Positions 2,850 to 46,502 of a DNA stretch of 64,000 bases are shown piece by piece. The stretch's first letter is position 1, and each line of letters begins with the position of its first letter. The stretch spans positions 186,001-250,000 of the forward strand of contig MPNQ01000001.1 of assembly GCA_002239105.1 (NCBI GenBank), read 5' to 3'. A program made the translations under genes and the position numbers. This stretch comes from a marine group bacterium Sva0996 bin134 (GTDB lineage: Bacteria; Actinomycetota; Acidimicrobiia; Acidimicrobiales; Bin134). The notes under the pieces are model-generated. The model made no database searches, was not told the DNA's origin, and worked only from the letters and a program-made list of their open reading frames with translations.

Positions 2850-3073
2850 CAGAGCTCCTTGTCAAGATTTTCTTCAACGATGGCGATGGCCTGGCCGGGG
2901 CAGCGATCCACCACTACTTCGGCCCGGTTACGGGGCAGTAGGCCGTCGCTGATGACCGAGGAGATGACCACGTCGTCGTCCAGTTCGAACACCTCGGGTT
3001 CGAGCATCTCGCAAATCCCGCCGCCGATGCACAGCTCCTGGTCGACCGCCACTCGTACGGGGTTGCCGCTCAC
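2849..3073 (-). CDS. 3Fe-4S-type ferredoxin (P450 redox partner)
   Basis: This short ferredoxin (74 residues) starts at a GTG that overlaps the P450 stop by 4 nt (GTGA). It has the single-cluster pattern C-x5-C (CIGGGIC) and a distal CPGQAI, the spacing used by bacterial P450-associated ferredoxins. It would pass single electrons from a ferredoxin reductase, not present here, to the neighbouring P450. The frame stays open upstream into the P450 gene, but the extra N-terminal residues are not ferredoxin-like, which is why the internal GTG is preferred. Confidence 0.88.
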   Translation of the reverse strand: MSGNPVRVAVDQELCIGGGICEMLEPEVFELDDDVVISSVISDGLLPRNRAEVVVDRCPGQAIAIVEENLDKEL

Positions 3074-4323: not shown

Positions 4324-4415
4324 GTCAGAAGTGCCCAGCACAACGGCGAGCGATTGTCATGGCCCCCGTGCACCTGGGGGGCAATTGGCCATGATTCGAA
4401 TGCCTAGCTGAAGGG

Positions 4416-5396
4416 CTAATTGGCATGGGTTTGATTGATCAAGAGCACCAGGCGACCTTGGACGTCGCCGGCGCGCAAACGGTCGTGGGCCAACTGGGCA
4501 TCGGTGAAGGGCATGGTCTCCACCGGGGCGATGATGGACGGTTCCCGGCGGGCCAGGTCGAGGAGCTCGCCCAGCTGCGGTCGGGTGCCCCAGATGCTGG
4601 ACATGAATCGGGCCTCGTGGGGAACGGCCCCAACGCCGAACGGGATGCGGCCGCCGTACAGGCCGACCGCCACCACCAAGCCCCGCCGGGCTACTGCACC
4701 GGCCGCAAGGGCCAGCGTGGCATCGAGTGCGACGAAATCAACTACCGCATCGAACAGCGGCAGATCGTCGTCGGCGTCAAACGCCCCTTCGGCGCCTATA
4801 GCCACCGCCGTAGCCCGCTTGTCGGGAGCTCGGTCGAAGGCGTAAACCTCGGCGTCGGTCAACAGCTTGAGGTATCGCAGCGCGAACTGACCTATCCCCC
4901 CGGCGCCGATCACCAGAACCCGGCGCTTCCGACCAGGACGGCGCAGCGTCTCCAGGGTTTGCTGCACAGCCCGGTAGCCGGTGAGGCCCCCGCAGGCCAG
5001 CGGCGCGCTGGCCACAGGGTCGAGATCGCCCAGCGGGTAAAGGTAGGCCCGATCGGCGATGCCCATGTGCTCGGCGTAGCCCCCGTCGACCACCAGGCCG
5101 GCCTCGGTGGCATCGGCGCAGATCATCTCGTATCCGTCAGTGCATTCCCGGCACCTCCCGCATCCCCACGGCGCGTACACCATCACCGGCCCGAGTTCGG
5201 GGTGTTTCCCGGTGACCTCGTGGCCCAGCACGATGGGGAGCGGGCTCGGGAATTCGCCGGCCACCACGTGCAGGTCGGAGTGGCACAGCCCGCAGGCAAT
5301 GACGTCGATGACTTCGTTTCCGTTGGCACCGGGATCGGGGTAGTCGTCCACCACTGTCAGGGGCGAGTTCCGAGCTTCTAGGACGACAGCGCGCAT
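4416..5396 (-). CDS. Zinc-dependent alcohol dehydrogenase (MDR family)
   Basis: This is a medium-chain dehydrogenase of about 326 residues. CGLCHSDLH and GHEVTG supply catalytic-zinc ligands, CGRCRECTDGYEMIC is a structural-zinc lobe, and VIGAGGIGQFALRYLK is the Rossmann nucleotide-binding motif. It would oxidise a primary or secondary alcohol with NAD(P). The frame is open far upstream, but homology-like sequence begins at MRAVVLEARN, so the ATG at 5396 is used. It lies about 90 nt upstream of the P450 on the same strand and plausibly feeds the same pathway. Confidence 0.9.
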   Translation of the reverse strand: MRAVVLEARNSPLTVVDDYPDPGANGNEVIDVIACGLCHSDLHVVAGEFPSPLPIVLGHEVTGKHPELGPVMVYAPWGCGRCRECTDGYEMICADATEAGLVVDGGYAEHMGIADRAYLYPLGDLDPVASAPLACGGLTGYRAVQQTLETLRRPGRKRRVLVIGAGGIGQFALRYLKLLTDAEVYAFDRAPDKRATAVAIGAEGAFDADDDLPLFDAVVDFVALDATLALAAGAVARRGLVVAVGLYGGRIPFGVGAVPHEARFMSSIWGTRPQLGELLDLARREPSIIAPVETMPFTDAQLAHDRLRAGDVQGRLVLLINQTHAN

Positions 5397-5513
5397 GTCA
5401 GTAGCTCTTGGGCAGGTCGAGGCACTTCTGGACAGCCACTGCCTCGACTCTATTGTTGACGACTCCGACTCTGACAGTCCGGTTGGTGTGTTCTGGCGGG
5501 GAAAAGTCCATCT

Positions 5514-6239
5514 ATGGTTCAGCCCGTGAAGCGCGCCTTGGCCATCGCCCACGAGTTGGACGGTCTCCCCGGCCAGATTGCCACCCGCCTGCGCCAGCGG
5601 GGCTACGAGGTCCACATCCACGTGGTGACCCACGACTATGACCACCCCAACGTCGCCGTGCCCTTCCCGACTTTGGAAGACTACGACTTGCTGTTGCCCA
5701 TGGGGTCGGTTCGCTCGCTCACCGATAAAGACGAAATCGACACCTGGATCTACGAAGAGCTCGACATGATCAGGCAGGCCCATGAGGAAGGCAAGGCCGT
5801 GTTGGGGATCTGCTTCGGTGGCCAGCTGATCTCCGAGGCGCTGGGTGGCATGGTCGAGGTGTCCCCGGTGACCGAGATCGGATGGTTCGAGCTTGACGAT
5901 GGCGAGGACGGCCCCAACCCGGCCGGACCGGGACCGTGGATGCAATGGCACCACGACCGTTTCACCCCGCCACTCGGCTCCGAGGTGCTGGCCCGAAACG
6001 ACAGCTCAGTGCAGCTCATCAGGATCGACCGCACGGTGGGAACCCAGTTCCACCCCGAGGTCGACGTGGCCCACGTCGAGTCGTTCCTTCGGCTGGCTCC
6101 CCCGGAATACTTGCATGAGTACGGGGTGGACTTCGACCAGCTCATGGAGGAGACCCGCCAGCACGAGATGGCCAACATCAAGCAGTGCCACGCCTTTGTC
6201 GACTGGTACCTGGACGAAGTGCTCGCCGTACCAAACTAA
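5514..6239 (+). CDS. Class I glutamine amidotransferase-like protein
   Basis: This 241-residue protein has a single GATase1 domain with the nucleophile elbow GICFGGQ (Cys near residue 102) and the catalytic His-Glu in QFHPEVD. It resembles stand-alone GMP-synthase-like amidotransferases, which occur in amino-acid, purine or gamma-glutamyl metabolism. No synthetase domain is attached. A second amidotransferase-fold enzyme (PuuD-like) begins 36 nt after its stop, so the two are probably cotranscribed. The acceptor substrate is not identifiable. Confidence 0.85.
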   Translation: MVQPVKRALAIAHELDGLPGQIATRLRQRGYEVHIHVVTHDYDHPNVAVPFPTLEDYDLLLPMGSVRSLTDKDEIDTWIYEELDMIRQAHEEGKAVLGICFGGQLISEALGGMVEVSPVTEIGWFELDDGEDGPNPAGPGPWMQWHHDRFTPPLGSEVLARNDSSVQLIRIDRTVGTQFHPEVDVAHVESFLRLAPPEYLHEYGVDFDQLMEETRQHEMANIKQCHAFVDWYLDEVLAVPN

Positions 6240-6275
6240 CGTTCTCAGTCAGATCGTTAGGCAGGGAACAATTCC

Positions 6276-6983
6276 ATGGCGAACAAAACTCCCCTGATCG
6301 GATTGCCCGGTCGGCGAAAGCGGGCCTGCGAGGTCAGCGGCTTTCCCGACATGATGGCCAACAGCGATGTCGATCTCTATCTAGCCGACTACGCCCGGGG
6401 CGTCATCGAGGCCGGCGGCATCCCGGTGCACATCCCCATCGATGTCGACCCCGCCGTGGTCGGCGAGCGGCTCGACGGGATTGTCCTCCCCGGGGGAACC
6501 GACATCGACCCGATCCGCTATGGGGCCGATCCCGACCCCGAACTGCTGCCCCCCGAGTCCGAGCGCGACGACCTTGAGCTCGGATTGCTCTCGGCTGCTC
6601 TTGAAGCCGAAGTCCCGGTTCTCGGCATCTGCCGGGGCATCCAAGTGCTCAACGTCTTCCAGGGAGGCACGCTGCACCAGCATGTACCCGAGCACGGCCG
6701 CTTCGATTTGCCCATTGATTCCACGATCCACCAGGTGAGTTTCGCCGAGGGCTCCACCTTGCATGATCTGTACGGGCCATCAGCCCAGGTAAACAGCCTC
6801 CACCATCAAACGGTGGCCGATCTGGGCCGGGATCTCACCGTCTCCGCCCGGGCCGACGACGGCGCAATCGAGGGCGTGGAGATGGGCGATCACGTGGTCG
6901 CCGTTCAATGGCACCCCGAGATGATGCCCACCCGCTCCACCGATCCGATCTTCCGCTGGCTCGTCCAGCGGGCCTCCCGCTAG
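6276..6983 (+). CDS. Gamma-glutamyl-gamma-aminobutyrate hydrolase-like (peptidase C26)
   Basis: This 235-residue protein carries the C26 signatures LPGGTDIDPIRYG, GICRGIQVLNV (nucleophile Cys) and the late VAVQWHPEMM (His-Glu). The family hydrolyses gamma-glutamyl bonds; PuuD releases GABA in putrescine breakdown. It follows another amidotransferase by 36 nt, and the potABCD/amine-oxidase locus lies 6-17 kb away, which supports a polyamine role. No gamma-glutamylputrescine synthetase is in the window, so a strict Puu role is unproven. Its stop codon shares a CTAG tetranucleotide with the convergent gene. Confidence 0.88.
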   Translation: MANKTPLIGLPGRRKRACEVSGFPDMMANSDVDLYLADYARGVIEAGGIPVHIPIDVDPAVVGERLDGIVLPGGTDIDPIRYGADPDPELLPPESERDDLELGLLSAALEAEVPVLGICRGIQVLNVFQGGTLHQHVPEHGRFDLPIDSTIHQVSFAEGSTLHDLYGPSAQVNSLHHQTVADLGRDLTVSARADDGAIEGVEMGDHVVAVQWHPEMMPTRSTDPIFRWLVQRASR

Positions 6984-7417
6984 TCCGGCTTGCGGGCGTG
7001 GCCGAAGCCGGTGAAGTCGCCGGACATGTCGGGGGGGCCGTAGTAGATGCGGTTGAGGGCTCGGCGGGCGAATTTCCACTGGCCCTCTTCTAGGCAGTAT
7101 TCGTCGTCGTAGTAGCCGTACATGGTCATGGGGTCTTCATCGGGGCGCTTGAAGTGCTCGATCACGTACCAGCGTCCGGTGCCAGTGCCCGTGGCTTCAT
7201 CGAGGTCGGTCCAGCCGTTGAGGTAGGCGTGGATCACCCCGTCGAGACGGGCCAGCATGCCCTGCCAGGACGATGAGATCTCGTCCCGACCGGTCTTGGT
7301 CATCGGGCCCATCTCCCACACTGCGTCTGTGGCCCAGGTCGAAGCCCACTGCTCGGCGTCGAAGCGGCACACCCCATCGGAATAGCGGGCCAACAGGGTT
7401 CGAATCTCTTCTGACAT
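6980..7417 (-). CDS. SnoaL/NTF2-like family protein
   Basis: This 145-residue protein starts MSEEIRTLLARYSDGVCRFDAEQW, the first helix of the NTF2-like fold, and continues with DAVWEMGP and GRDEISSSW, typical of the SnoaL-like (polyketide cyclase / dehydratase-like) group. Such proteins are small cytoplasmic cones that bind hydrophobic ligands and act as isomerases, dehydratases or ligand carriers. No specific reaction can be assigned. It is convergent with the PuuD-like gene and divergent from a VOC protein. Confidence 0.75.
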   Translation of the reverse strand: MSEEIRTLLARYSDGVCRFDAEQWASTWATDAVWEMGPMTKTGRDEISSSWQGMLARLDGVIHAYLNGWTDLDEATGTGTGRWYVIEHFKRPDEDPMTMYGYYDDEYCLEEGQWKFARRALNRIYYGPPDMSGDFTGFGHARKPD

Positions 7418-7528
7418 CGCATCTCCGTTCAGTCGTAGGACGTGCCAGTCCGCTCGCAGGCTATGCCAGGGATCTCTCTTCCGTCAGCAGCGTCCCAGTC
7501 GCAGAAGTCAGGTTCTAGTGTTGGCCCC

Positions 7529-8816: not shown

Positions 8817-9587
8817 ATGGTCTTATGGGTGGCAGCGCTGGCGATCGCCGGGATGATGCTGGTGGTGTGGGCCATCAGCGTGTTGATTCGAGACGCGGGC
8901 ATCGTCGACATCCTGTGGGGCTTCGGCTTCGTGGTGGTGGCCTGGGTGAGCTGGCTGGTCACCGACGGGCACGATGTGAGGGCCGCACTGCTGGTGTTCA
9001 TGGCCACCGCTTGGGGGCTGCGCCTGGCCATTCATCTGGCCTTTCGCAACATCGGGCAAGAGGAGGACTTCCGATATCGGTCGATGCGCCGACGAGCCGG
9101 CGACCGCTTCTGGATCACCAGCCTGGTGAGGGTGTTCGGGTTGCAGGCGGCGGCCATGTGGGTCATGTCGCTTCCCCTTCAGCTGGGCATCAGCGAAGCC
9201 GATAGGGGATGGACGCCGCTGTGGGTGATCGGCATGGTGGTTTTCCTGATCGGATTCGGGTTCGAGACCATCGGTGATTGGCAGCTCACCCGGTTCAAGG
9301 CCAACCTGGCCAACGCGGGGAAGCTGATGGATCAAGGCCTGTGGCGCTATAGCCGCCACCCCAACTACTTCGGCGATGCCGCGGCGTGGTGGGGCATTGG
9401 TTTAGTGGCTGCCTCCACCCCCATCGGGATCGTGGGGCTGATCGCCCCGGCGCTCATCACCTGGATTCTGGTGAAAGTGTCCGGCGTGCCGATGGTGGAG
9501 CACCGCCTGACGAAGACCCGCCCGGGTTATCAGGAGTACATCCAGCGAACCAGCTCGTTCGTGCCCCGCCGTCCCAAATCTGTGTGA
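8817..9587 (+). CDS. DUF1295 / steroid 5-alpha-reductase-like membrane protein
   Basis: This 256-residue integral membrane protein starts with hydrophobic helices (MVLWVAALAIAGMMLVVWAISVL) and shows about six or seven transmembrane stretches. The C-terminal motif LWRYSRHPNYFGD followed by WWGIGL is diagnostic of the DUF1295/isoprenylcysteine methyltransferase-related superfamily. Relatives reduce steroid or lipid double bonds with NADPH or methylate prenyl groups. The exact substrate is unknown. Confidence 0.88.
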   Translation: MVLWVAALAIAGMMLVVWAISVLIRDAGIVDILWGFGFVVVAWVSWLVTDGHDVRAALLVFMATAWGLRLAIHLAFRNIGQEEDFRYRSMRRRAGDRFWITSLVRVFGLQAAAMWVMSLPLQLGISEADRGWTPLWVIGMVVFLIGFGFETIGDWQLTRFKANLANAGKLMDQGLWRYSRHPNYFGDAAAWWGIGLVAASTPIGIVGLIAPALITWILVKVSGVPMVEHRLTKTRPGYQEYIQRTSSFVPRRPKSV

Positions 9588-9686
9588 TCGCGGGAACCTG
9601 GCCGATTGTTGCATCGTCTTAGCTGGTGAGGTCGACAATGGAGGCCTTGGCTCAGCCGTAGGCTTTCACAGGAGCGAGGTTCACCG

Positions 9687-10613
9687 ATGAAGACCAACCG
9701 CACCATCACACTGCTCTTCGCCGTTGGCGTTGTGTTCACTCTGCTGGTCGCCACCGGGTGCGGCAGCGGCTCCAACGAGGAGCCGGTCACTGTGGTAGGG
9801 GCGCAGACGGATCCGACCGCCACCGCCACCAGCACTGTCCCCGAGATCTCCCAGCCGACTACGACGGCAATCGCAGTCGCCACCCCCACTGCCGATCCCG
9901 ACGCCAACGCCTCGATAACCGGCACCGTCACCTACCGAGAGCGGATCGCGCTGACCCCGGGGGCCGTCGTCACCGTGCAGTTGCGGGACACCTCCCTCCA
10001 AGACGTGGCCTCCGAGCTGATCGCCGAGCAGGTCATCGCCAACCCAGGCCAGGTGCCCATCTCGTATGAGGTTCGCTACAACTCAGACGACATCAACCCC
10101 CGCAACACCTATTCCATCTCGGCCCGGATCACCGAGTCTGACGGCCGGCTGGCCTTCATCAACGACACCGCTTATGACGTGATCACCCGGGGCAACCCCA
10201 CCAGGGTCGACATGGTGCTGGTGATCGTCCAGCCGCCGCCCGACCCCACCGGCGAGTGGAACGACGAGAACTCCCGTCAATATGTGGAAGAAGAAGTCGA
10301 GGTCATCGGCGCCGAGGTAGTGGAGTACCACCCCGAGGTCATAATCCTGGTGGACCACTACCAGTCCACCGTCGAGAACTGCGTCCGCAGGGGCAGCCAG
10401 TCGTTCGAGATCGACGGTTCGGACATCTACGCCACCATCACACTGACGGTTCCGCCCCCCACCCCGTGGGCCATCGACTGCGACGCCGAAAGGGTCGTAG
10501 TAGAAGAGGTGATCCGCTTCGGCGATTCCCTCTCCCCAGGCCAGACTTACCGCGTATTCGTCAACGGCACCGAGACCACCACCTTCACGGCTCCGCTGGC
10601 CGACACTCAGTAG
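9687..10613 (+). CDS. Secreted lipoprotein with YbaY-type domain
   Basis: This 308-residue protein has a lipoprotein signal (MKTNRTITLL..., lipobox LVATGC with Cys near residue 26), so it is probably lipid-anchored outside the membrane. A Thr/Pro-rich linker follows, then a region of about 105 residues starting ITGTVTYRERIALTPGAVV, which matches the YbaY beta-sandwich often labelled type III secretion lipoprotein chaperone; no such secretion genes are here. A less recognisable C-terminal half (about residues 185-308) contains two Cys that could pair. AGGAG precedes the ATG as a ribosome-binding site. Confidence 0.75.
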   Translation: MKTNRTITLLFAVGVVFTLLVATGCGSGSNEEPVTVVGAQTDPTATATSTVPEISQPTTTAIAVATPTADPDANASITGTVTYRERIALTPGAVVTVQLRDTSLQDVASELIAEQVIANPGQVPISYEVRYNSDDINPRNTYSISARITESDGRLAFINDTAYDVITRGNPTRVDMVLVIVQPPPDPTGEWNDENSRQYVEEEVEVIGAEVVEYHPEVIILVDHYQSTVENCVRRGSQSFEIDGSDIYATITLTVPPPTPWAIDCDAERVVVEEVIRFGDSLSPGQTYRVFVNGTETTTFTAPLADTQ

Positions 10614-10655
10614 TGGGCCCCAATCAGTCCGAGCACTGGGCCGTCTATTCAAGGC

Positions 10656-11303
10656 TCAGGAGAACGGCTGGCCGGAGTCCCAGAATCCCAGGGAGCGCAT
10701 CTCGTCGTGCAGTCGGGTTGCTTCTTCGCGTGAAATATGTCCTTCGTCGGCGGCACGAACGAGGAGCTTGCGGATGCGTTCATAGGAGTAGTTGCGGCCA
10801 CCGTGTAGCTGGTCGAGCACCTTGAGTGCATCGGTGTCGTCGGTTGCGATTGTCCACTCTCGTGTGTACGAGATCGCGACGCATGCCGCCTCGCCGGGTC
10901 CTAGGCCAACCCTCAGCCCGTACGCGGTGGCATCGCTGGCTTGGAGCCTCGCGGCCAACAGCAACTCTTCGGGAGTCATCGCAATAGAAACGAGACTCCC
11001 CTCGTCGTAGAGATCGTCGATGCGTTTGATCCGATTGAATGACTCGATCTCGTGGTCAGAGGACTCTGATTCGGCAGCCGCCTCAGCTGCGGCCCCGTAA
11101 TGCCTGACCGCCTGCCTCATTTCGGAGAGCAATTCCGACTTCGGCGAAGCTCCTTCCGGCAGTTTCCTGTCCTCAGGGTCGTAGACCGCCATTGGAACTT
11201 GGAGCGGTCTGCCCATGAGGTCGCCAAGAAGGGCCTCCTGCCCGACGAGCAGGAAGTACATGAGCACCACGGTGTCGATGATGTGAGAACCCTCAGACAA
11301 CAC
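10656..11303 (-). CDS. PIN-like putative toxin paired with an Xre-ImmA regulator
   Basis: This protein has about 215 residues. The frame is open upstream, but the gene probably starts at GTG 11303, overlapping the stop of the Xre-ImmA gene by 11 nt. Features resembling a degenerate PIN nuclease are an early Asp (HIIDTVVLMYFLLVG), a mid-region LGPGEAACVAISY with Glu, and TIATDDTDALKVL with paired Asp. A C-terminal tail (SREEATRLHDEMRSLGFW) follows. Pairing with an Xre-COG2856 protein is a recognised toxin-antitoxin layout. The PIN call is moderate; the nuclease role is inferred. Confidence 0.6.
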   Translation of the reverse strand: MLSEGSHIIDTVVLMYFLLVGQEALLGDLMGRPLQVPMAVYDPEDRKLPEGASPKSELLSEMRQAVRHYGAAAEAAAESESSDHEIESFNRIKRIDDLYDEGSLVSIAMTPEELLLAARLQASDATAYGLRVGLGPGEAACVAISYTREWTIATDDTDALKVLDQLHGGRNYSYERIRKLLVRAADEGHISREEATRLHDEMRSLGFWDSGQPFS

Positions 11304-35868: not shown

Positions 35869-36861
35869 TCAAACCGCAGTTGTGCGGCGGGCTCGGGAGG
35901 CGAACGCGGCGGCCACCGCGTCGTAGGCCAGCTTGGGATTGCCCTCTCGGTCGAACAGCAGGGGGGCGCGATCGGGGCCGAAGTGCTGGTCGACCCACGA
36001 GTGGGCGTCGCTCACCCCCCAGAAGGTGACCTCTCTACACGCCTCTACCGACAGCGCGGCGTCGACCAGCTCGCCATAGAGTTGGGCCTGTACGTCTAAG
36101 CGGTCGGCATCGGTGGGATGGGCCAAGATGTCCATCTCGGTTACGGCCACCTCCAGCCCCATGTCGGCGAAGGTAGATACTCCTCGATGGAGGCGAGCGG
36201 GGTCGGGAGGCCCGGGGGAGAAGTCGGGATAGAGCTGATGGCCTTGGATGCCGATCCCGTGGAGGGGCAGGCCCCGCTCAACTAGGTCGGCAACAGTCCG
36301 GGTGAACAGGTCGTGTTTGTCGGGGATCACGTCGGTGTGGGTCTCGTTGATCCACAGCTCGATGTCTGGGTCGACCTCGTGGGCAAGGGCCAGCACCTCG
36401 GCCAGGTAGTCCTCCCCGAGCAGGGTGCGCCATACGGATTCGGCATGACGGCCTTCCAACCAGTGCAGCGGCTCATTTACGACGTCGACCCGGGCCACAG
36501 AACCTCCCCAGTGGGAGAACAGTTCACGGACGTGGTCCCCAAGGTGGCGGCGAAGAGCCCCGGCATCTTCACACTTGGTGATGTAAGTCGGCGTGCCCCA
36601 GTGGGGCCACACCACGGTGTGGCCTCGCACCTGCATCTGGTGGGTTTCCGCAAATCGAATCAGCTCGTCGTTGGCCTCCCACTCCCAGCAGTCCGGCTCG
36701 GGATGAATCCACTTCCACTTCATGGCCCGCTCGGCGGTGACCGAGTTGAACTCGGCGGCCAACAGCGACCGGTAATCCTCGTCGCCAGAAGCGAAAACAG
36801 TGTCGCTGACCGCGGCCCCGACCCGGATTCCACCAGCGGCCGCCAGATCCCTCAGGCTCAC
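35869..36861 (-). CDS. GH10 endo-beta-1,4-xylanase, cytoplasmic
   Basis: This protein has about 330 residues. The acid/base Glu lies in VDVVNEPLHW (near residue 129) and the nucleophile Glu in VAVTEMDIL (near 242), with the GH10 early motif FNSVTAERAMKW and HTVVWPHW. No signal peptide is seen, so it should act in the cytoplasm on imported short xylooligosaccharides or aryl xylosides. Its GTG start overlaps the TetR stop (GTGA), making it the last gene of the fused-transporter operon. Confidence 0.92.
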   Translation of the reverse strand: MSLRDLAAAGGIRVGAAVSDTVFASGDEDYRSLLAAEFNSVTAERAMKWKWIHPEPDCWEWEANDELIRFAETHQMQVRGHTVVWPHWGTPTYITKCEDAGALRRHLGDHVRELFSHWGGSVARVDVVNEPLHWLEGRHAESVWRTLLGEDYLAEVLALAHEVDPDIELWINETHTDVIPDKHDLFTRTVADLVERGLPLHGIGIQGHQLYPDFSPGPPDPARLHRGVSTFADMGLEVAVTEMDILAHPTDADRLDVQAQLYGELVDAALSVEACREVTFWGVSDAHSWVDQHFGPDRAPLLFDREGNPKLAYDAVAAAFASRARRTTAV

Positions 36862-37439
36862 GGCGACCGCCTCGCCGACTCGGTGACCCCGAACATCCGG
36901 GCCACAGTCTTGGACCACAGCTCAGGGTTGGGGGCCGGGCGGCCGTGGGCTTCTTGCACGCCGACCCCGGCCGACAGGGCGTTGATCACGTAGAGCAGCA
37001 CTTCGGGGGCGTCGAGGCGCCGCAGTGTGTCAAGGATCCAGGGGTTTCGGGCCGAGAAGATCTCGGCCACCCCGGCAGCCACGTCAGGATCGTGGCGAGC
37101 GGCCGCGGCCGCGTCGATCTGCAAGAGCCGAAGGTGGCGGCTGTCTGGGTTGATGAACTGGAAGAAGACTTCGATCGGCCGCTCAACAGCGTCCTGGGCA
37201 TCGAATCGAGAGTCGCGTTCGGCCAACTGCGTGCGGATCACCTCCACCAGAAGCTGGCCTTTCGACCGGAAGTGGCCGTAGATGGCCCCCTTGGTAACCC
37301 CGGCGGCTACCGCAATGTCTCGCAACGAGACCGCGGCGTAGCCCCGCTCCACGAACACCTCGGCGGCCATCTCCAACAGCCGAGCCCGGGTGGCCTCGGC
37401 TTTGGGGGTGAGCGGGGGATCGGCGAACACTGAGCTCAT
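36858..37439 (-). CDS. TetR-family transcriptional regulator
   Basis: This 193-residue protein has the TetR HTH at residues about 15-60 (RLLEMAAEVFVERGYAAVSLRDIAVAAGVTKGAIYGHF) and a helical ligand-binding domain. It overlaps the LivHMG fusion stop by 4 nt upstream and the GH10 start by 4 nt downstream. Such tight placement suggests it senses the imported compound or a product and controls this operon. Confidence 0.9.
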   Translation of the reverse strand: MSSVFADPPLTPKAEATRARLLEMAAEVFVERGYAAVSLRDIAVAAGVTKGAIYGHFRSKGQLLVEVIRTQLAERDSRFDAQDAVERPIEVFFQFINPDSRHLRLLQIDAAAAARHDPDVAAGVAEIFSARNPWILDTLRRLDAPEVLLYVINALSAGVGVQEAHGRPAPNPELWSKTVARMFGVTESARRSP

Positions 37440-40306
37440 GGCCCACCTCCTGCGTCTGATCTAGAAATGGCCCGGGTGTCGGTGCCCAGGTAGCTGGCCA
37501 CCACTTTGGGGTTGTCGCGCACCGCCTGAGGCGGCCCCTCGGCGATCACCTCTCCGGCGTCCATGCAATAGATCCGGTCGCTTATCGACATCACCAGCGG
37601 CATGTCGTGCTCGATCAACAGCACCGAGGCATCGAGTTCCCGGCGCACGCCTTGCAGCAGCGGAACCAGGGCCTCGGCCTCCCTCTGGGCCACCCCGGCG
37701 GTGGGCTCGTCGAGGCAGAGCAGTCGGGAACCGCCGGCCACCAGACAGGCCAGCTCCACGATCCGGCGAGTGCCGGTGGACAGCTCGGCCACGAAACTGT
37801 CGGCGTAGTCGCCCAAGCCGAAGAAGCTGATCAGGTCGTCGGCTGTTTTCTCTTGGCGGCGCTCGTGGTGAAAGCCCGACAGCAGCAAGAGGGCTGCGGG
37901 CCAGAACCGAGTGGGCATACGCCGCTCTAGTGCCACCTGCACCGTCTCGCGCACGGTGAGGTCGGGGAATAAAGTGGCGGCCTGAAAGGCCCTACCCAGG
38001 TGGTGGCGGTGGCGGCGATGGGCGGCAAGTCGGCTCACGTCGGCTCCGTAGATCTCAACTCGCCCATTCGCGGGGATCAGGCCGCCCACCCCGTTCATGA
38101 ACGAGGTCTTGCCCGCGCCGTTGGTGCCGATCAGCCCCACGATCTCGCCGTGGCCTACCTCGAGATTCACCTGGTTCACTGCAACCCGAGGGCCGTAGCG
38201 CACGGTGAGCTCGTTGGCAGCCAGTGCCACTTGCGACGGCGGCGAAGGGATCGAAACCGAGCCAGGCATTTCTCGAACTCGCACCGTAGGGGAGGGTTGT
38301 CGCTGGGCGAACCAGCTGAAGAACGAGTCCCGGGCCAGATACCAGAGCTGTACGAAGCCTCCCGGCGCGTACATCAACAGCAACAGGATTCCCAGGCTGC
38401 TGGTCAGCACCGGGATCAGAGCCGAGTCGGGCCAGAAGGCAGGCAGTCCGATCACCCATAGCGCTCCGAGAACGGGGCCGATCACCGAACCGATGCCGCC
38501 GATTACCGCGATGGCCACCACCTTGAACGAGGTGTCCACCGAGAAGAACGAGAACAGCACCGTCGAATAGAGCCCGGCCAAAAGCGACCCGGCAAATCCG
38601 GCCAGCCCGCCGCCCAAGGCGAAGGCCAGCACCTTGGATCCGGTGGGCCACACGGTGGCGGCGGCTGCGGCCGAGGGGTTCTCCCTGGTGGCCACAATGC
38701 GGCGGCCAATCCCGGTGCGACGAAGGTGGGCGGTGAATGCCACCCCCAGCACCAGGCCGATCAGGGCCAGATAGAAAAAGGTCCGCTGGGGGGCGAGGTC
38801 GAAGGGTCCGATGTGGGCCCTCTCCAAGAGCGCCGCAGTTTGGCTGCCTCCGCTGAGGAACGGCCGGGTGAAGAAGAACTTCTCGGCGGCCACTGCGAAC
38901 GCCAGGGTGACCACGGCGAGCAACAGGCCTCGGGCTCGGAGCGCGCCGATGCCGATAACCACCGATGCGGCGGCGGCCATGGCGGTGCCCCACACCGCAG
39001 CCCACAAGAAATGCAGTTCAGGCATGGGCACCACCACGTCGAACCCGGCTACCCCGAGTCCGAGATCGTTGCCGCTGACCAGCGCGGTAGTGGTCAGCGC
39101 CCCCAAGCCGGCGAAAGCGCCCTGGCCAAGCGAGATCTGTCCGCTCCAGCCCACCAACACCACCAAAGAGAGAGCGGCCAGCGCCATCAGCAAGATTTCG
39201 CTGTAGCGGAACGTGCGGCTAGCCGTGGTCACGAACACCGGCACAACCGCGGCTATGGCCACCCCCACCGCGGCCAGGATGCGAGGGTGGTGGCGAACCC
39301 ACCAGATCGAGCGCAGCCGGGTGGGTATGGGTCGAATGCGGGGGCTGAACGAGAAGGCGCCGGCCTCGTCGGGGGCGCCTCGGCGGGTGGTGGCAACGAT
39401 CCCCAAAATGGCCACCAGCAGCAGCACGGCTTCGAACCTTCCTAGATCCAGCGGGTAGTTGACCCGGATGAGTGCTTCGACGATGCCGAGGATGATTCCG
39501 GAGGCCACCGCCACACTGAACGACACGAATGAAGCGCACACCGCCACCACCAACACCCGGGTCATGGTGGCGTGGCCGGGGCTGGTGGCCACGAACGAGC
39601 CGATGGAGTCGGCTTCTTGGAACACCGTGACCAGCCCGGCGAACGCCCCGGTGAGCGCCCATACCACCGTCGACACCCGGCCCGGATGGATTCCAGCCAA
39701 TCGAGCCCGATCGGGATCGGCCGCCGTGGCTCCACAGCCCCGCCCCACGCGCGCGCGGGCGGCGCCGCCCGCCGGGGCTCGAATGGCGCGCCCCCATGCC
39801 GACCACCGCACCCAGATGCTCAGCGCCGCCACTGCCGACGCTGATGCGACGAACAAAATGAACTCCCCTCCGTCGATGCGGATGCCGAACCACTCCAGTT
39901 CCCGGTTCCAAGGCGTGGGGAACCGCACCCTCTTGTCCTCTGCCGAGGCTTCGGGCAGGGCGAATATAAGAGCTTGGGCCAACTGGGCCAGCCCGATGGT
40001 GGCCACCAGCAGAATCACCCGGGGAGCGGTGAACAGGCGGCGCACCACGGTTAGCTCGGCCAACCCCAAGAAAGCAGCCCCGGCTAACACGGCGAGCGCT
40101 ACCCCCAACCAGTACGGCACCCCGTAGCGGATCACCAAATGGGCCATCGCCTGGCTGGCCAACACCCCGGTAGCGCCTACTGCAAAGTTGATAATCCGGC
40201 TCGATCGGTAGATAAGGATGATCCCTAGGGCCAACAGCGCATAGGAAAGGCCATTGACCGCGCCGATGAAGACGAACTGCCGTCCGACCTCGAAGGCGAG
40301 GATCAC
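37436..40306 (-). CDS. LivH-LivM-LivG fusion: two HAAT permeases and an ABC ATPase in one chain
   Basis: This 956-residue fusion has a LivH-type permease at about 1-310, a LivM-type permease at about 340-660 (GWSGQISLGQGAF is the LivM hallmark) and a LivG-type ATPase at about 700-940 (Walker A IGTNGAGKTSF, signature LSTGTRR, Walker B LLCLDEPTAGV). It combines three subunits that are normally separate in branched-chain amino acid or urea importers. A 16-residue Ala/Gly/Arg insert interrupts the LivH loop before AADPDRARLAGI. It overlaps the MFS-LivF gene upstream and tetR downstream by 4 nt each. Confidence 0.9.
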   Translation of the reverse strand: MILAFEVGRQFVFIGAVNGLSYALLALGIILIYRSSRIINFAVGATGVLASQAMAHLVIRYGVPYWLGVALAVLAGAAFLGLAELTVVRRLFTAPRVILLVATIGLAQLAQALIFALPEASAEDKRVRFPTPWNRELEWFGIRIDGGEFILFVASASAVAALSIWVRWSAWGRAIRAPAGGAARARVGRGCGATAADPDRARLAGIHPGRVSTVVWALTGAFAGLVTVFQEADSIGSFVATSPGHATMTRVLVVAVCASFVSFSVAVASGIILGIVEALIRVNYPLDLGRFEAVLLLVAILGIVATTRRGAPDEAGAFSFSPRIRPIPTRLRSIWWVRHHPRILAAVGVAIAAVVPVFVTTASRTFRYSEILLMALAALSLVVLVGWSGQISLGQGAFAGLGALTTTALVSGNDLGLGVAGFDVVVPMPELHFLWAAVWGTAMAAAASVVIGIGALRARGLLLAVVTLAFAVAAEKFFFTRPFLSGGSQTAALLERAHIGPFDLAPQRTFFYLALIGLVLGVAFTAHLRRTGIGRRIVATRENPSAAAAATVWPTGSKVLAFALGGGLAGFAGSLLAGLYSTVLFSFFSVDTSFKVVAIAVIGGIGSVIGPVLGALWVIGLPAFWPDSALIPVLTSSLGILLLLMYAPGGFVQLWYLARDSFFSWFAQRQPSPTVRVREMPGSVSIPSPPSQVALAANELTVRYGPRVAVNQVNLEVGHGEIVGLIGTNGAGKTSFMNGVGGLIPANGRVEIYGADVSRLAAHRRHRHHLGRAFQAATLFPDLTVRETVQVALERRMPTRFWPAALLLLSGFHHERRQEKTADDLISFFGLGDYADSFVAELSTGTRRIVELACLVAGGSRLLCLDEPTAGVAQREAEALVPLLQGVRRELDASVLLIEHDMPLVMSISDRIYCMDAGEVIAEGPPQAVRDNPKVVASYLGTDTRAISRSDAGGGP
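39733..39780. repeat. 48-bp in-frame insert in LivH, flanked by GGCTC direct repeats
   Basis: The expected LivH sequence RATAADPDRARL is split: 16 codons of very GC-rich sequence (Pro-Ala-Gly-Gly-Ala-Ala-Arg...) stand between RA and TAADPD. GGCTC occurs at 39728-39732 and 39776-39780, exactly 48 bp apart, like a target duplication. Inside is a perfect 18-bp palindrome, GCGGGCGGCGCCGCCCGC, at 39755-39772. Confidence 0.6.
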
Positions 40307-42519
40307 GACGGGTTGTCCGGTTCGGGACGGTCGTCGCCCAAGAAGACGGCTCTGGCGATGTCGCCACGCTCGGCTAGCTCAGAGGTAGGACCGTCGAAAC
40401 GGACGTGTCCCTTCTCGATGAACACCGCCCGATCCGACAGGGCCGCCGCGATGTTGAGCGACTGTTCCACGATGATCATCGTTTGGCCCTCGGCCTTGAG
40501 CCGCTCCACTATCTCCAGCAGCTCTCCGATCACCGCAGGGGCGAGGCCGAGCGACAGTTCGTCGATGAGCAAGACGTCGGGTTCGTGCATCAGCACCATG
40601 GCCAAAGCAAGCATCTGCTGTTGACCCCCGCTGAGCGCACTGGCGGGCTCGTCGAGCCGATCGGCCAGCTCCGGGAAGATCTCCAGCACATGGTCGATTC
40701 GGGAGTTGAGCTCGGTCCGGTTTCGCCGCATGGTCCATCCCCCAGTGCGGAGGTTGTCCTCGATGGATAATGGCAAGAACACCGCTTTGCCCCCGGGAAG
40801 CTGCTGGATGCCCATGTCCACCCGGGTTTGGGGCGAGGTGAGGGTGATGTCGCGCCCGTGCAGGGAGACGATGCCCCGCGACGGAACGGCCAGCCCGCTG
40901 ATCACCCGCAGGATCGTCGACTTGCCGGCGCCGTTGGTTCCCAGCAGGGCCAGGGTCTCGCCCCGGTCCACATGGAGGTTGACCCCGAACAGCACCTGCA
41001 CCGGCCCGTAGGAGAAGTCGATGTCCCTGAGGCCAACTGCGGGCAGTTGGTCGGGGTGCGATTTCCGCCGCTCCAGCTCGGCGTGGTCCTTTTCGATCTC
41101 GTCCACCACCAGCGACAGGTCATGGCGGATGTGCCGCGCCCCCCAGATCAACAGGGCGCCCCCGATGATCTTGAACGGGATCGCCACTATGAGTATGGCG
41201 GTGCGCTCGTCGGTGGCGTCGGAGAGCAAACCGGCCACTATGGGGCCGAGCACGCCGCCGCCCAAGAAGATCACCATGATCGACAACGCAGTGGACTGGG
41301 CGCGCAGTCGATAGGGAACCACCCCCACCAACAGCGGCGAGATCATGCCGAAAATAATCACGCTCAACACCGCGGGGACGATCCCCACCGCGGCGAATAA
41401 CACGGGGTGGGGCATGAAGAACTGGATAGGGATGGCCACCGCAATGGGGAAGAACAGGGCGCCCACCCAACTCAGTGCCCTAGCCGGGCTCTCGCGGTAC
41501 AAAGAGTCGTAACGCTTGGCCGCCCACGGTGCGGCCGCGAACGCCAGCATCCCGGGGACGAAGCCGATCATCGCCCTCTCGAACGGGCTAAGGCCCCATC
41601 GGTCTTCCAGGTACAGGTTGACCAAAAAGCTCTGCCCGATGATCGAGAACACGATGATGCTGAACGAGATCCACGCCAGCTTCAGCGTCTTGATGGCCAT
41701 GAGGCGCTGCCAGACGGCCCCGAGCGACACCCGGGGCGGGTCGTCATCCTCCTCCATCACCTCACCGAGGACGGATTTCTGCTCGAACTGGCCCCGGGGT
41801 GGATCGGGAACGAACAAAGCCCAGATTCCCAATGCCAGCGTGGGCCAGGCGAAGATCCAGTAGGCCCACCGCCAGTTGTCGTCTACCAGCAGCATGAGGC
41901 CGCCAACCAACAGCGGGGCGATCCGCTCACCGCCCCGGCCGAGCACGTTCTTAACGGCGTAAATGCGACCTCGGGCCGAAATGGGGTAGGCGTCGGCCAA
42001 AACCGCTCCCTGTACCGGAAAGGTGTTGGACGTGCCGATCCCCATGAGCATGCCAACCAGGAAGAACCCCAGCGCGGTGGCTTGGAAACCCCGGGTGAAC
42101 ATGGCCACGCTCCAAAAGACGGTGGCCAACCCCACCAGATGCATGCGGTTTACTCGATCGGCCATCTTGCCCATCGGGATGGCGCACAGCGTGGTGGTGA
42201 TGAGACCGCCGATCCCGATCACTGCCAAACCGGCGTCAGACACCCCGAAGCTGTTCTGAATCTCGGGCCCGAGGAGGCTGGGGATCGCAATCTGGAAGGC
42301 ATCGACCGCGTCCAGGGTGCCTAGCACGGCCAGCACGCCTACTCCGCCGGTGGCCACCGCCTGTCGCAGCGTTATCGCTTCTTCACCTACTCCGGGAAGG
42401 TCTTCGTCGGCGCGGATCTCAAGCTGATCAGCGTCGGCTGCCTCTCGGGCCGCCTCCTCGTCGAGCAGCGCCCGGCTCAGGTCGGCAAAGCTGCGGCGAT
42501 CGCCCGACGTATCCGTCAT
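40303..42519 (-). CDS. MFS transporter fused to a LivF-type ABC ATPase
   Basis: This 738-residue chimera has, after a charged N-terminus, about twelve helices forming an MFS permease (about residues 50-460), with the MFS motif A variant GKMADRVNRM. It then has a LivF-type ATPase at about 500-725 (Walker A LLGTNGAGKST, signature LSGGQQQML, Walker B LLIDELSLGL). MFS carriers use ion gradients, so an attached ATPase is unexpected. It stands where livF would be, between the binding-protein gene and LivHMG, so the ATPase half probably partners LivG while the MFS half has an unknown role. Confidence 0.9.
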   Translation of the reverse strand: MTDTSGDRRSFADLSRALLDEEAAREAADADQLEIRADEDLPGVGEEAITLRQAVATGGVGVLAVLGTLDAVDAFQIAIPSLLGPEIQNSFGVSDAGLAVIGIGGLITTTLCAIPMGKMADRVNRMHLVGLATVFWSVAMFTRGFQATALGFFLVGMLMGIGTSNTFPVQGAVLADAYPISARGRIYAVKNVLGRGGERIAPLLVGGLMLLVDDNWRWAYWIFAWPTLALGIWALFVPDPPRGQFEQKSVLGEVMEEDDDPPRVSLGAVWQRLMAIKTLKLAWISFSIIVFSIIGQSFLVNLYLEDRWGLSPFERAMIGFVPGMLAFAAAPWAAKRYDSLYRESPARALSWVGALFFPIAVAIPIQFFMPHPVLFAAVGIVPAVLSVIIFGMISPLLVGVVPYRLRAQSTALSIMVIFLGGGVLGPIVAGLLSDATDERTAILIVAIPFKIIGGALLIWGARHIRHDLSLVVDEIEKDHAELERRKSHPDQLPAVGLRDIDFSYGPVQVLFGVNLHVDRGETLALLGTNGAGKSTILRVISGLAVPSRGIVSLHGRDITLTSPQTRVDMGIQQLPGGKAVFLPLSIEDNLRTGGWTMRRNRTELNSRIDHVLEIFPELADRLDEPASALSGGQQQMLALAMVLMHEPDVLLIDELSLGLAPAVIGELLEIVERLKAEGQTMIIVEQSLNIAAALSDRAVFIEKGHVRFDGPTSELAERGDIARAVFLGDDRPEPDNPS

Positions 42520-42533
42520 CTGGTGCTACGAGG

Positions 42534-44015
42534 TCACGGGGTCAGGTCAACAGCATCGCCCAGGGCGACGAGTTCGCCGTCCTCATCGGCATCACCGTCG
42601 AATTGCACCAGCCGCAGGGTGTCATTGCCGTTGTATTTGCCCGGTCCGAACGACAAGAACGGGATCTCCGGAAGTGATGCCTGGGTGAGGGATTCCAGCC
42701 CAGCTTGGAAGGAATCATTGGTGAGCTCCACGCTGGACGCGGCGGCGATCTGCACGAACAGCGACAGATCGCGACACGCCAGCACGGTGTAATTCCAGTA
42801 GTTGGGATCTTCCTCGCTGTTCTCCACCCCCGGACCGGGCCGCTCGAAGCGAGCGTCGGGCAGCGCGGCGGAGACTGTGTCGATGCACTCTTGGGTCTCG
42901 GCGTCCACTGGGTCGGTGGCCAGGTCGAGCCGCACGGCAGAGGAGATGGTGCCGTCCAGCGCCATTGGATCGATCCCGGAGGCGGTCGCAGTGGTGAAGT
43001 TGGTGGAGTCCACCGCGGCCATCTGGATTCCGAGGTCTCCGTAGGTGACGAGGCCGGTGGCTGCGGCCCCAAAGATCACCATGCGGTCGATGCCGGCGTC
43101 GGCCACCTGCTCCTGCATGATCTCGGTCTGGCTCTCGATGGCGTCATCGTCGAGCACCAGATCGTCGATGTTCATGGTGATGGCGATCTCCACCCCGATG
43201 TCGGCAAAGGCTGCTTCCACCACATCGCCTAGCAATTCGGCAGTGGTGGAACCGTCGTAGTGGATGCCCACTGCGGTAGCGCCGTCGAACCACCCCCTGC
43301 GGGCCAGCTCCGCGATGAACGCCTCATCCCTGGCCGTCCCCTCGATTCTGAAACTGGCGAGAGGGGCCCGGGCTCGTTCCAAGAGCTCTCCCTTGGCGTT
43401 CACCTGAGAGCCCACGTGAATGGTTTCGTGCTGTTCGGATACGCAGTAGTTGGCGTCGCCCCGCAGCCCGCCCAGCACGGCGAACACTTGGTCGTCTTCG
43501 GTGAGCTTGATGCAGGCGGCCAGCATCTCGTTGGGAAGGGCCGGGCTGAAACCGGCGATGTGCGCCGCGAGCATGCGTCCGTGGATTCCGCCGTCGGCAT
43601 TCACCGCGCCGACAAGGGCGTCCCATACCGGTTCGGGGTCGCCAAAGAACCCGAACCCGAACATGGAGACGTCCCAGAAACCGATTCCGATTCGGATGGT
43701 GTCCTCGGTTACTCCCCGGAAGCTGGCGGTAAGCACCACCGGCGTGGGTTCGGGGGTGGGCTCAGGCGCCGGTTCGGAGGGCTCGTCCTCCGAAGCGGGC
43801 TCTTCGGGAGTTTCCGCGGCCGGCTCCGGCTCGCCTTCTTCTGGTGCCGGTTCCGCGGGAGCTTCTTCAGCTGGCTCTTCTGCGGGCTCGGTCGGTACAG
43901 CTATAGGGGATTCTTCAACTGCTGGCTCGTCCTCGCCGCCACCCCCCGTTGTGCAGGCGGTGGCGAACATTGCCGCGGCAAGCAGCAGGGCCAACAACAT
44001 TCGTGAGTATTTCAT
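42534..44015 (-). CDS. LivK-type substrate-binding lipoprotein
   Basis: This protein has about 493 residues. The signal peptide ends at a lipobox (FATACTTGG, Cys near 20). A long Pro/Glu/Ala-rich linker (about residues 28-80) tethers a type 1 periplasmic-binding domain (GVTEDTIRIGIGFWDVSMFGF; VFAVLGGLRGDANYC; ATAVGIHYDG). It is the solute receptor for the fused HAAT transporter, 14 nt upstream of the MFS-LivF gene. The ligand is not readable. ATG 44015 replaces a longer frame running into the intergenic region. Confidence 0.88.
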   Translation of the reverse strand: MKYSRMLLALLLAAAMFATACTTGGGGEDEPAVEESPIAVPTEPAEEPAEEAPAEPAPEEGEPEPAAETPEEPASEDEPSEPAPEPTPEPTPVVLTASFRGVTEDTIRIGIGFWDVSMFGFGFFGDPEPVWDALVGAVNADGGIHGRMLAAHIAGFSPALPNEMLAACIKLTEDDQVFAVLGGLRGDANYCVSEQHETIHVGSQVNAKGELLERARAPLASFRIEGTARDEAFIAELARRGWFDGATAVGIHYDGSTTAELLGDVVEAAFADIGVEIAITMNIDDLVLDDDAIESQTEIMQEQVADAGIDRMVIFGAAATGLVTYGDLGIQMAAVDSTNFTTATASGIDPMALDGTISSAVRLDLATDPVDAETQECIDTVSAALPDARFERPGPGVENSEEDPNYWNYTVLACRDLSLFVQIAAASSVELTNDSFQAGLESLTQASLPEIPFLSFGPGKYNGNDTLRLVQFDGDADEDGELVALGDAVDLTP

Positions 44016-44102
44016 CGCATTCCCCCCGGATCCCGTCGCTGTTGCACCCAAAATATACCAGTGGTAGAAAAATTGTCCAGAGGATGTTTGAGAGAGGGTT
44101 TC

Positions 44103-46502
44103 ATGGTTGACGTCGAAGCACTGGTTGCCGACCTGACGCTGGAGGAGAAATGCCGGATGGTGGCGGGCGAGGGCCCGTGGATCATCCCCGGGTGCGAGCG
44201 ACTCGGCATCCCCGACTGGTGTGTAAGCGACGGTCCGGTAGGGGTCCGGGGTCGGAACATGGGCCCTGGGCTGGTGGTACCCGGTCCGTCGGCCATCGCC
44301 GCCACCTGGAACACCGCCCTCGTCCATGAGCTAGGCCAGGCGTTGGCCACCGAGGCTGCCGACCGCAAAGTGGACATGATCCTCGCCCCCACGGTTAACC
44401 TCCACCGCTCGCCCCGGTGCGGTCGCCATTTCGAGAGCTACAGCGAGGATCCCGAGTTGAGCTCTCGTATTGCGGTGTCGTACATCACCGGGGTTCAGTC
44501 CCAGGGTGTGGGTGCCTGTGTCAAGCACTTTGTGGCCAACGACCAGGAGTTCGAGCGCCGCACCATCAACGTCGACGTTGACGAGCGCAGCCTGCGGGAG
44601 ATCTATCTCCCGCCATTCGAGGCCGCGGTCAAAGAAGCCGGGGTACGCGCCGTCATGGGTGCCTACAACTTCGTCAACGGCCACCATGCCTGCGCCCAGC
44701 CCGAAATGCTGGTCGACGTGTTGAAGAAGGAGTGGGGATTCGACGGTTTGGTGGTTTCCGACTGGGGTGCCATCAAAGAGACCGTCGCTCCCGCTCTCTA
44801 CGGGCTCGATTTGGAAATGCCCGGTCCGGGCCGATGGTGGGGAAGAGGTCTGCTATTTGAGGCAGTCGAGGCCGGAAGGGTGGACGAGTCGCTCGTCGAC
44901 GACAAGGTGCGACGCATCGTCGGCTTCCTCAACTGGGCTGGACGCATCGATACGCCAACTGACCACGACGAGGCCAGCGTCGACCACTTAGAGCATCGAG
45001 CACTAGCCCGCCGGGCCGCTGCCGAGTCGATGGTGCTGATCTGCAACGACAGCGGACTCCTCCCGTTGGCCGGCGACCGCACGGTGGCGCTCATCGGTCC
45101 GGGAGCAGCCGAAACGGCCCTTTTCGGGGGCGGTTCGGCCAGCTTGGTGCCCCATCGCACTACCTCGGTGCTGGAGTCTTTGGGAGAGCGGCTCGGTCCG
45201 CGGTTGGTGGGCCACGCTCCCGGTATTGACATGCGCCGAAAGGCCGAAGCTGTTCCCGAGTCGTGGATCGACGGCGGTGTCAAGTTCGAGCTCTACGACG
45301 GCATCGGATTCGACGGCGAGCCGTTTGAGACCCTTGACCGGCCCCTGCCGTTCAACGCATGGATTGGCGACAACTGGCCCAAAGACTGCGACGCCATGTC
45401 GGTGCGGCTGGAGTTCACCATGACACCAGAGCACTCCGGTCGGCACCGGCTCTGCGCCCTTGGATTCGCCCACGCCCGCCTGTTTGTCGACGGCCAATTG
45501 GTGGCCGACAACCACATCGACAGGTTCAGCGCCAGCCTTGGCCTGCATGGTGGTCATGGTTACCTTGATCTCGAGGCTGGCCATCCCTACCGCATCCGTC
45601 TCGATCACGTCCCCCCAGAGGGAAACATGTGGGTCAGCATCGTTGATGTGGGGGTAGAACTGGCCGACCTCAGCCGCGAGGAAGGCCTTTCCAATGCCGC
45701 CACCCTGGCTGCCCAAGCCGACACCGCAGTGGTGGTGGTCGGTTCCAGCTCCGAGTGGGAGTCTGAGGGAAGCGACCGAGTCTCCATTGAGCTGCCCAAT
45801 AATCAGGATGAGCTGGTTGAGCGAGTGCTCGACGCCAACCCCAACACCGTCGTGGTGCTCAACTGCGGCGCACCGATGACCATGCTGTGGCTTGATCGGG
45901 CAGCGGCCGTGCTGCTGGCCTGGTACCCGGGCCAAGAGGCCGGTGAGGCTATCGCCGATGTGCTTGTGGGCGACGCTGAGCCTGGGGGGCGGATGCCCAC
46001 CAGCTGGGCATGGCGAGAACAGGACACTCCGGCTTACCTGAACTACCCCGGCGAAGCCGGCGTGGTGCGCTACGGCGAGGGCATCTTCGTGGGCTACCGC
46101 TGGTATGACGCCCGGGGCATCGAGCCGATGATCCCGTTCGGCCACGGGGGCTCCTACACAACGTTCGAGTGGGGCCCGCCCGAGGTGAGCGGTGAGGGCA
46201 TGGAGGTCACCGTTTCGGTCCCAGTCACCAATACCGGCCACCGGCCGGGCAGCGAGGTCGTGCAGATCTACGTGGCCCCGCCTACCGGCGATGTGCCCCG
46301 ACCCCCCAAGGAACTAGCCGGCTTCGCCAAGCTCACCCTCGACCCAGGAGTGACCGGCACTGCGGAGATCGCCCTCAAAGAGCGCTCATTCGCCCGCTGG
46401 GATCCTCAGGACCGCCGCTGGGTGATCGACCCCGGCCAATACCAATTCCTAGTGGCCGCATCAGCCACCGACATCCGCTCGGTACTGGCCGTTGATGTGT
46501 GA
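44103..46502 (+). CDS. GH3 family beta-glycosidase with PA14-like insert
   Basis: This protein has about 799 residues. The GH3 barrel shows the nucleophile Asp in GLVVSDWGA (near residue 220) and the substrate loop KHFVANDQEFERR. The alpha/beta sandwich follows (VVVVGSSSEWESEGSDR; LAWYPGQEAGEAIADVL), split by a PA14-like beta domain (RHRLCALGFAHARLFVDGQ, about 440-530). A fibronectin-like end (VPVTNTGHRPGSEVVQIYV) closes it. There is no signal peptide. It diverges from the importer/GH10 operon, so it probably finishes hydrolysis of imported glycosides to monosaccharide. Confidence 0.92.
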   Translation: MVDVEALVADLTLEEKCRMVAGEGPWIIPGCERLGIPDWCVSDGPVGVRGRNMGPGLVVPGPSAIAATWNTALVHELGQALATEAADRKVDMILAPTVNLHRSPRCGRHFESYSEDPELSSRIAVSYITGVQSQGVGACVKHFVANDQEFERRTINVDVDERSLREIYLPPFEAAVKEAGVRAVMGAYNFVNGHHACAQPEMLVDVLKKEWGFDGLVVSDWGAIKETVAPALYGLDLEMPGPGRWWGRGLLFEAVEAGRVDESLVDDKVRRIVGFLNWAGRIDTPTDHDEASVDHLEHRALARRAAAESMVLICNDSGLLPLAGDRTVALIGPGAAETALFGGGSASLVPHRTTSVLESLGERLGPRLVGHAPGIDMRRKAEAVPESWIDGGVKFELYDGIGFDGEPFETLDRPLPFNAWIGDNWPKDCDAMSVRLEFTMTPEHSGRHRLCALGFAHARLFVDGQLVADNHIDRFSASLGLHGGHGYLDLEAGHPYRIRLDHVPPEGNMWVSIVDVGVELADLSREEGLSNAATLAAQADTAVVVVGSSSEWESEGSDRVSIELPNNQDELVERVLDANPNTVVVLNCGAPMTMLWLDRAAAVLLAWYPGQEAGEAIADVLVGDAEPGGRMPTSWAWREQDTPAYLNYPGEAGVVRYGEGIFVGYRWYDARGIEPMIPFGHGGSYTTFEWGPPEVSGEGMEVTVSVPVTNTGHRPGSEVVQIYVAPPTGDVPRPPKELAGFAKLTLDPGVTGTAEIALKERSFARWDPQDRRWVIDPGQYQFLVAASATDIRSVLAVDV

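Follow-up and report, generated by a model that had tools for sequence, protein, structure and literature searches.

A single polypeptide in an Acidimicrobiia genome joins a Spns-like MFS domain to a LivF-type ABC ATPase within an operon for a HAAT importer, and the same fusion recurs across many genomes. Primary (ABC) and secondary (MFS) transporters, which are treated as separate energy classes, here share one chain. The gene lies in the window, the 64,000-nucleotide stretch that was analysed (GenBank assembly GCA_002239105.1, contig MPNQ01000001.1, positions 186,001–250,000). No account of such a fusion was found in the literature, with open-access text as the material covered, and the MFS-LivF fusion is apparently undescribed so far, as judged from these sources. 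We tentatively favour the reading that the MFS half is still a working carrier, tethered to the importer.

The gene order at the window locus is [SBP][MFS-LivF][LivH-LivM-LivG][TetR] (Table 1), with 14 bp between the SBP gene and the fusion gene and an overlap of 4 bp between the latter and the LivHMG gene. Judged by its gene content, the operon is a complete HAAT (LIV-type) ABC importer made of SBP, LivH-LivM, LivG and LivF, which bears out the first-pass annotation, where the fusion had been assigned the place of livF in a HAAT operon. In the LivHMG protein, BPD_transp_2 matched three stretches in the Pfam search, LivH and LivM were told apart by profiles made from paralogues, and the LivG part has a BCA_ABC_TP_C tail (Pfam). 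The window SBP had no Pfam match to Peripla_BP_6; against the same model the paralogue at L009, another copy of the system, scored 1.7e-6, below the cut-off, and the SBP of Embleya passes. The mechanically delimited SBP reading frame extends to 44327, beyond the likely start at 44015, and a sigma-70-like promoter match (10/12) lies just upstream of this start at 44050–44079 on the minus strand, the count of such matches being about as expected by chance. The operon lies between a GH10 and a GH3 glycoside hydrolase gene (35869–36918, minus strand, and 44061–46502, plus strand), and a likely GH3 gene, judged by eye, is found near the L009 copy. A PhyH dioxygenase gene also neighbours the window operon, while sulfatase, amidohydrolase, P450 and PhyH genes occur near other fusion copies; the neighbour genes hint at small molecules of various kinds that come from other organisms.

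Table 1. Features of the fusion operon, in window coordinates.
Feature	Position	Strand	Remarks
SBP, substrate-binding lipoprotein	42534..44015	-	likely start 44015 (MKYSRMLLALLLAAAMFATACTTG, lipobox)
MFS-LivF fusion protein	40303..42519	-	738 aa, ATG start, single ORF
Spns-like MFS domain	41119..42363	-	residues about 53-467; Pfam MFS_1, phmmer, AF2 model
TM12 + stalk	41059..41208	-	predicted single continuous helix 438-487, running into LivF
LivF-type ATPase domain	40336..41037	-	residues about 495-728; motifs intact
LivH-LivM-LivG fusion	37436..40306	-	956 aa; both HAAT permease domains + second ATPase
TetR-family regulator gene	36858..37439	-	overlaps LivHMG end by 4 bp

Within the fusion protein, the Pfam search placed MFS_1 at residues 75–426 (E 1.3e-27) and ABC_tran at residues 512–654 (E 1.4e-25), and the fusion junction corresponds to residues about 467–494 (DNA about 41118–41037). 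The ATPase had been described as complete, and Walker A (LGTNGAGKST), signature (LSGGQQQ) and Walker B (LLIDE) are indeed all intact; the motif A of the MFS half had been called a variant and is better described as canonical, as it reads GKMADRVNR. The H-loop reads VEQS in the window protein and is without His in every family member compared, and a His-less H-loop is the usual state in LivF. UrtE and LivF models top the list for the fused ATPase half, whose scores do not reach the curated LivF, LivG and UrtE cut-offs. In the AF2 model (34-row alignment; mean pLDDT 85, pTM 0.79), which represents a monomer with LivHM not included, the helix 438–487 runs unbroken from TM12 toward the ATPase. The Foldseek list of this fusion model was occupied by ABC matches and was uninformative on the MFS half.

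Orthologues of the window fusion were present in 13 public Acidimicrobiia loci (identity 78–96%), and a check of continuity across the junction found no stop in 12 of these 13 independent MAG loci, the remaining one, L028, ending ahead of the junction; OX638344.1, among the junction-spanning loci, is listed as chromosome. The genome of the window holds four further full-length fusion copies at 42–46% identity, and all five copies adjoin a LivHMG gene, with an SBP-like gene near each. The fusion therefore recurs across genomes, and its homologues are not always two separate genes. That two genes were joined through a sequencing error in annotation or assembly is practically excluded, since dozens of independent genomes hold intact fusions, which likewise rule out a frameshift or misassembly at the window locus. 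An artefact of this kind is suggested elsewhere only, with nothing at the window locus pointing to it: at L180 (G433:C48:21000-27000, 2862–5084, minus strand) MFS and LivF lie in different, overlapping frames, as a frameshifted member or through a sequencing error.

The fusion was found in 19 of the 22 genomes of the family, with up to 8 matches per genome, some of them partial. Of 198 genomes sampled from the class, 56 had full-length fusions in an alignment profile search, counted as rows spanning both halves (a tally of 66 adds LivF-only and partial matches), and 17 of 346 Actinomycetota genomes were positive. Among 149 Bacillota genomes, each scored for its best 7 candidates with a query that does match in Actinomycetota, none had a full-length fusion, and no full-length member was found in viral contigs and phage records. 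Of 72,556 plasmid records, only a replicon of Embleya NBC_00888 had a match with at least 80% coverage among the matches listed; this Streptomycetaceae isolate carries two fusion copies. As far as the sampled genomes represent it, the fusion is common in this Actinomycetota class, with sponge-associated actinobacteria among its carriers.

Two architectures were distinguished, [MFS-LivF][LivH-LivM-LivG] (type I) and [LivH-LivM][MFS-LivF-LivG] (type II). LivH, LivM and LivG adjoin the fusion in 19 of 20 distant loci (11–16 kb each), the one exception being L075, where LivG was undetected; fusions viewed in context are accompanied by a single HAAT set. Several type II operons adjoin a membrane-anchored or secreted protein whose profile matches type I SBPs (99.7% by hhalign in one pairwise comparison), and most SBP-like proteins beside type II operons have no Pfam match of their own. 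The same LivF subfamily also occurs without MFS, as [LivHM][LivF-LivG] (L182, L185, L186), as LivH-M-F-G single chains (L014, L181, L183, L187–L192) and as [LivF][LivHMG] (L184), so the MFS is a module gained or lost by otherwise similar importers. For instance, L014 (G000:C14:12000-28000, 3375–7244, plus strand) encodes a 1289-residue LivH-LivM-LivF-LivG chain without MFS, which is followed by an exporter-like protein of 1181 residues in which ABC_membrane and ABC_tran each match two stretches.

A branch with support 100 sets type II apart in the MFS tree and one with support 79 sets type I apart, and both types together with the stand-alone L205 split from the other stand-alone relatives with support 97. 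The LivF tree recovers these two main groups as well, and MFS-less members fall both between and inside them. Both trees were built with a quick method and carry SH-aLRT support only, and the type labels of loci fetched without flanks were taken from tree neighbours. Because the two trees share their main groups, the halves have largely travelled together. The spread of the fusion shows it to be old, and it has persisted over deep divergence in two architectures. A single origin of the MFS is compatible with the MFS tree, and the LivF tree leaves MFS-less groups in between; there may have been one gain followed by losses in L014, L181 and L184, or several gains. L179 was dropped as a case of MFS loss, its LivF reaching the contig edge. 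No domain order other than MFS-then-LivF occurred in the full domain lists of flank-fetched loci; the 98 fused proteins compared, of which 97 come from loci and one from the window, were collected by this order and cannot themselves exclude other orders.

The closest sequence match of the MFS half is HnSpns 6e8j (phmmer, E 4.4e-7), and the closest structural match of its AF2 model is human Spns1 (Z 40.7, 411 residues), followed by outward-open Spns2 (Z 40.3). The cytoplasmic gate of HnSpns, D87-R91-D142, and its functional residues D41, R42, R122 and E129 (PMC9440201) were carried onto the window protein through the phmmer alignment. The gate residues correspond to D121, R125 and D176, respectively, so that the D-R-D charge relay of motif A is present, and the other sites to D73, A74, G156 and T163. 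Across the 98 fused proteins D121 is found in 90, R125 in 98 and D176 in 97, these three and R217, R315, P402 and R406 each being conserved in 90 to 98, and 93 have an acidic residue at the TM1 position D73. Arg occupies position 156 in 75 of the 98, and 60 have a basic residue at position 163; the TM4 Arg (HnSpns R122, residue 156) has undergone at least 8 changes along the tree, and the window copy carries Gly there. The window lineage (window, L016, L017, L025, L027) has A74, G156, T163 and Q170, the window copy thus being without E74, R156, K163 and H170, all common in the family. The proton switch of TM4 RxxxG Arg plus Glu129 is absent from the window protein, which, given G156 and T163, is Spns-like but not filed as a proton-coupled Spns. 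With most of the Spns proton switch missing, the window copy is unlikely to be a classical Spns proton carrier and is probably a uniporter or exchanger, or has another coupling. Acidic 74 and basic 163 occur together in 54 of the 98 (Fisher p 1e-10, ancestry ignored), and counting by independent pairs gave 5 for and 0 against (median p 0.06), which is no more than suggestive of an E74-K163 charge swap standing in for R42-E129.

The residue D467 in the TM12/stalk is Asp in 98/98 fused proteins and in 8/8 stand-alone relatives compared, which rules it out as a fusion-specific coupling residue; since stand-alone relatives conserve the gate and D467 to an equal degree, these residues indicate a general MFS function and not coupling to LivF. 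At the predicted start of TM8, R315 (window 41575–41577, minus strand) is Arg in all 98 fused proteins and in L205, is Ala or Ser in the eight stand-alone MFS compared, and is the sole position invariant in fusions yet missing from these eight. L205 (G419:C8:22500-30179, 6026–7528, minus strand), the stand-alone MFS clustering with the fused proteins, has an altered motif A (ATKVNR) and is possibly the fission product of a fusion.

The window system and L027, its most distant orthologue, have identities of 85.7% in MFS, 76.1% in LivF, 68.4% in LivH, 63.9% in LivM and 72.7% in LivG, and the corresponding dN/dS values are 0.092, 0.160, 0.197, 0.255 and 0.247. The dN/dS of the MFS is 0.05–0.09 within the window lineage and lowest among the long domains in four of five comparisons, LivF and LivM being lower in the one with L017. 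As estimated from these coding sequences, the MFS half ranks first or close to first in constraint among all parts of the importer in the window lineage, and its low dN/dS indicates that this constraint holds despite the loss of most of the proton switch.

This constraint, mostly the highest of the system, speaks against an MFS that only anchors or assembles the importer and no longer carries anything, as does the charge relay of motif A, which an anchor would not need and whose Arg is nevertheless invariant. In addition, the MFS-less operons L182 and L184–L186 of the same LivF subfamily manage without any MFS, so an anchor is seemingly unneeded. Such a scaffold would fit the four residues lost from the window copy and the loss of the Pfam MFS signature from the L013 copy, but we regard it as improbable. 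L013 (G000:C46:148000-165000, 9102–11105, minus strand) is a strongly diverged MFS-LivF copy of 667 aa, which had no MFS match in the Pfam search and is adjoined by SBP and LivHMG genes. Its N-terminal 400 residues align to the MFS profile over 345 columns with an hhalign probability of 92%, a single pairwise comparison in which the small alignment wrongly held an unrelated row, L203. As a further six genomes of the family retain this diverged copy (conserved at 75–87%), the MFS domain of some members may not transport. Its retention together with a full operon would also suit a transceptor-like regulator, in which the MFS binds a solute and tunes LivF via the stalk helix without net transport. 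The conserved gate beside the stalk and the central polar residues, which vary by lineage and are repeatedly lost, point the same way; however, stand-alone MFS relatives show the same pattern of conservation, and any MFS family with varied substrates would do so. We consider a sensor rather unlikely.

Among transport, sensing and anchoring, transport by the MFS is rated most likely, and a HAAT importer with a tethered, still working MFS carrier is the best, if tentative, explanation. A Spns-like carrier would be built into the importer, its cytoplasmic C-terminus joined to the N-terminus of LivF; because TM12 is predicted to continue as a stalk helix to LivF, the latter could dock under LivHM with the MFS bundle alongside in the membrane. 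From the operon structure, the full complement of subunits and the fusion to LivG in type II, we infer that MFS-LivF assembles with LivHMG. The MFS part would still alternate between outward-facing and inward-facing states and, as a second carrier, move a solute that is linked to the importer substrate, by parallel uptake, by counter-flow, or by passing a lipophilic substrate over from the membrane, and the tether would hold it at the importer in a 1:1 ratio. The first-pass suggestion of an exchange or efflux partner of the importer is possible within this range. Against a working carrier stand the Gly at residue 156 and the replacement of the E129 and R42 equivalents by Thr and Ala in the window copy.

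The predicted covalent helical stalk and the largely missing proton switch of the window copy could also be taken to mean that LivF powers the MFS alternation directly. We consider this very improbable, as LivHM, the usual partner of LivF, is encoded alongside. Most stand-alone relatives, too, have another residue at the E129 position, so that losing it is unrelated to the fusion, nor are coupling helices for an ABC dimer known from MFS proteins. It is likewise quite improbable that one ABC ATPase dimer serves both LivHM and the attached MFS, with alternation set by the ATPase and not by protons. Communication between an ATPase and an MFS carrier becomes directly testable in this system, for which the cultured actinomycete Embleya is a source.

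SBP, LivH, LivM, LivG and LivF are shared with the HAAT / LIV-I importers (TC 3.A.1.4; E. coli LivJ/K-LivHMGF), but the window LivF bears an extra 12-TM MFS domain, and LivH, LivM and LivG are fused. With Spns (HnSpns, MsSpns, human SPNS1/SPNS2) the window MFS has the motif A charge relay and the TM1 Asp (D41 = D73) in common, but it is joined to an ATPase, and R42/E129 are replaced in the fused family, commonly by E74/K163 and in the window copy by Ala/Thr, together with R122 by Gly. Another MFS fusion is of the LplT-Aas type. The sensor kinase-MFS family TC 2.A.1.34 is a further one (PMC3924187). In both, as here, an MFS carrier is covalently attached to a cytosolic domain, but the partner in the window is the ATPase of a complete primary transporter.
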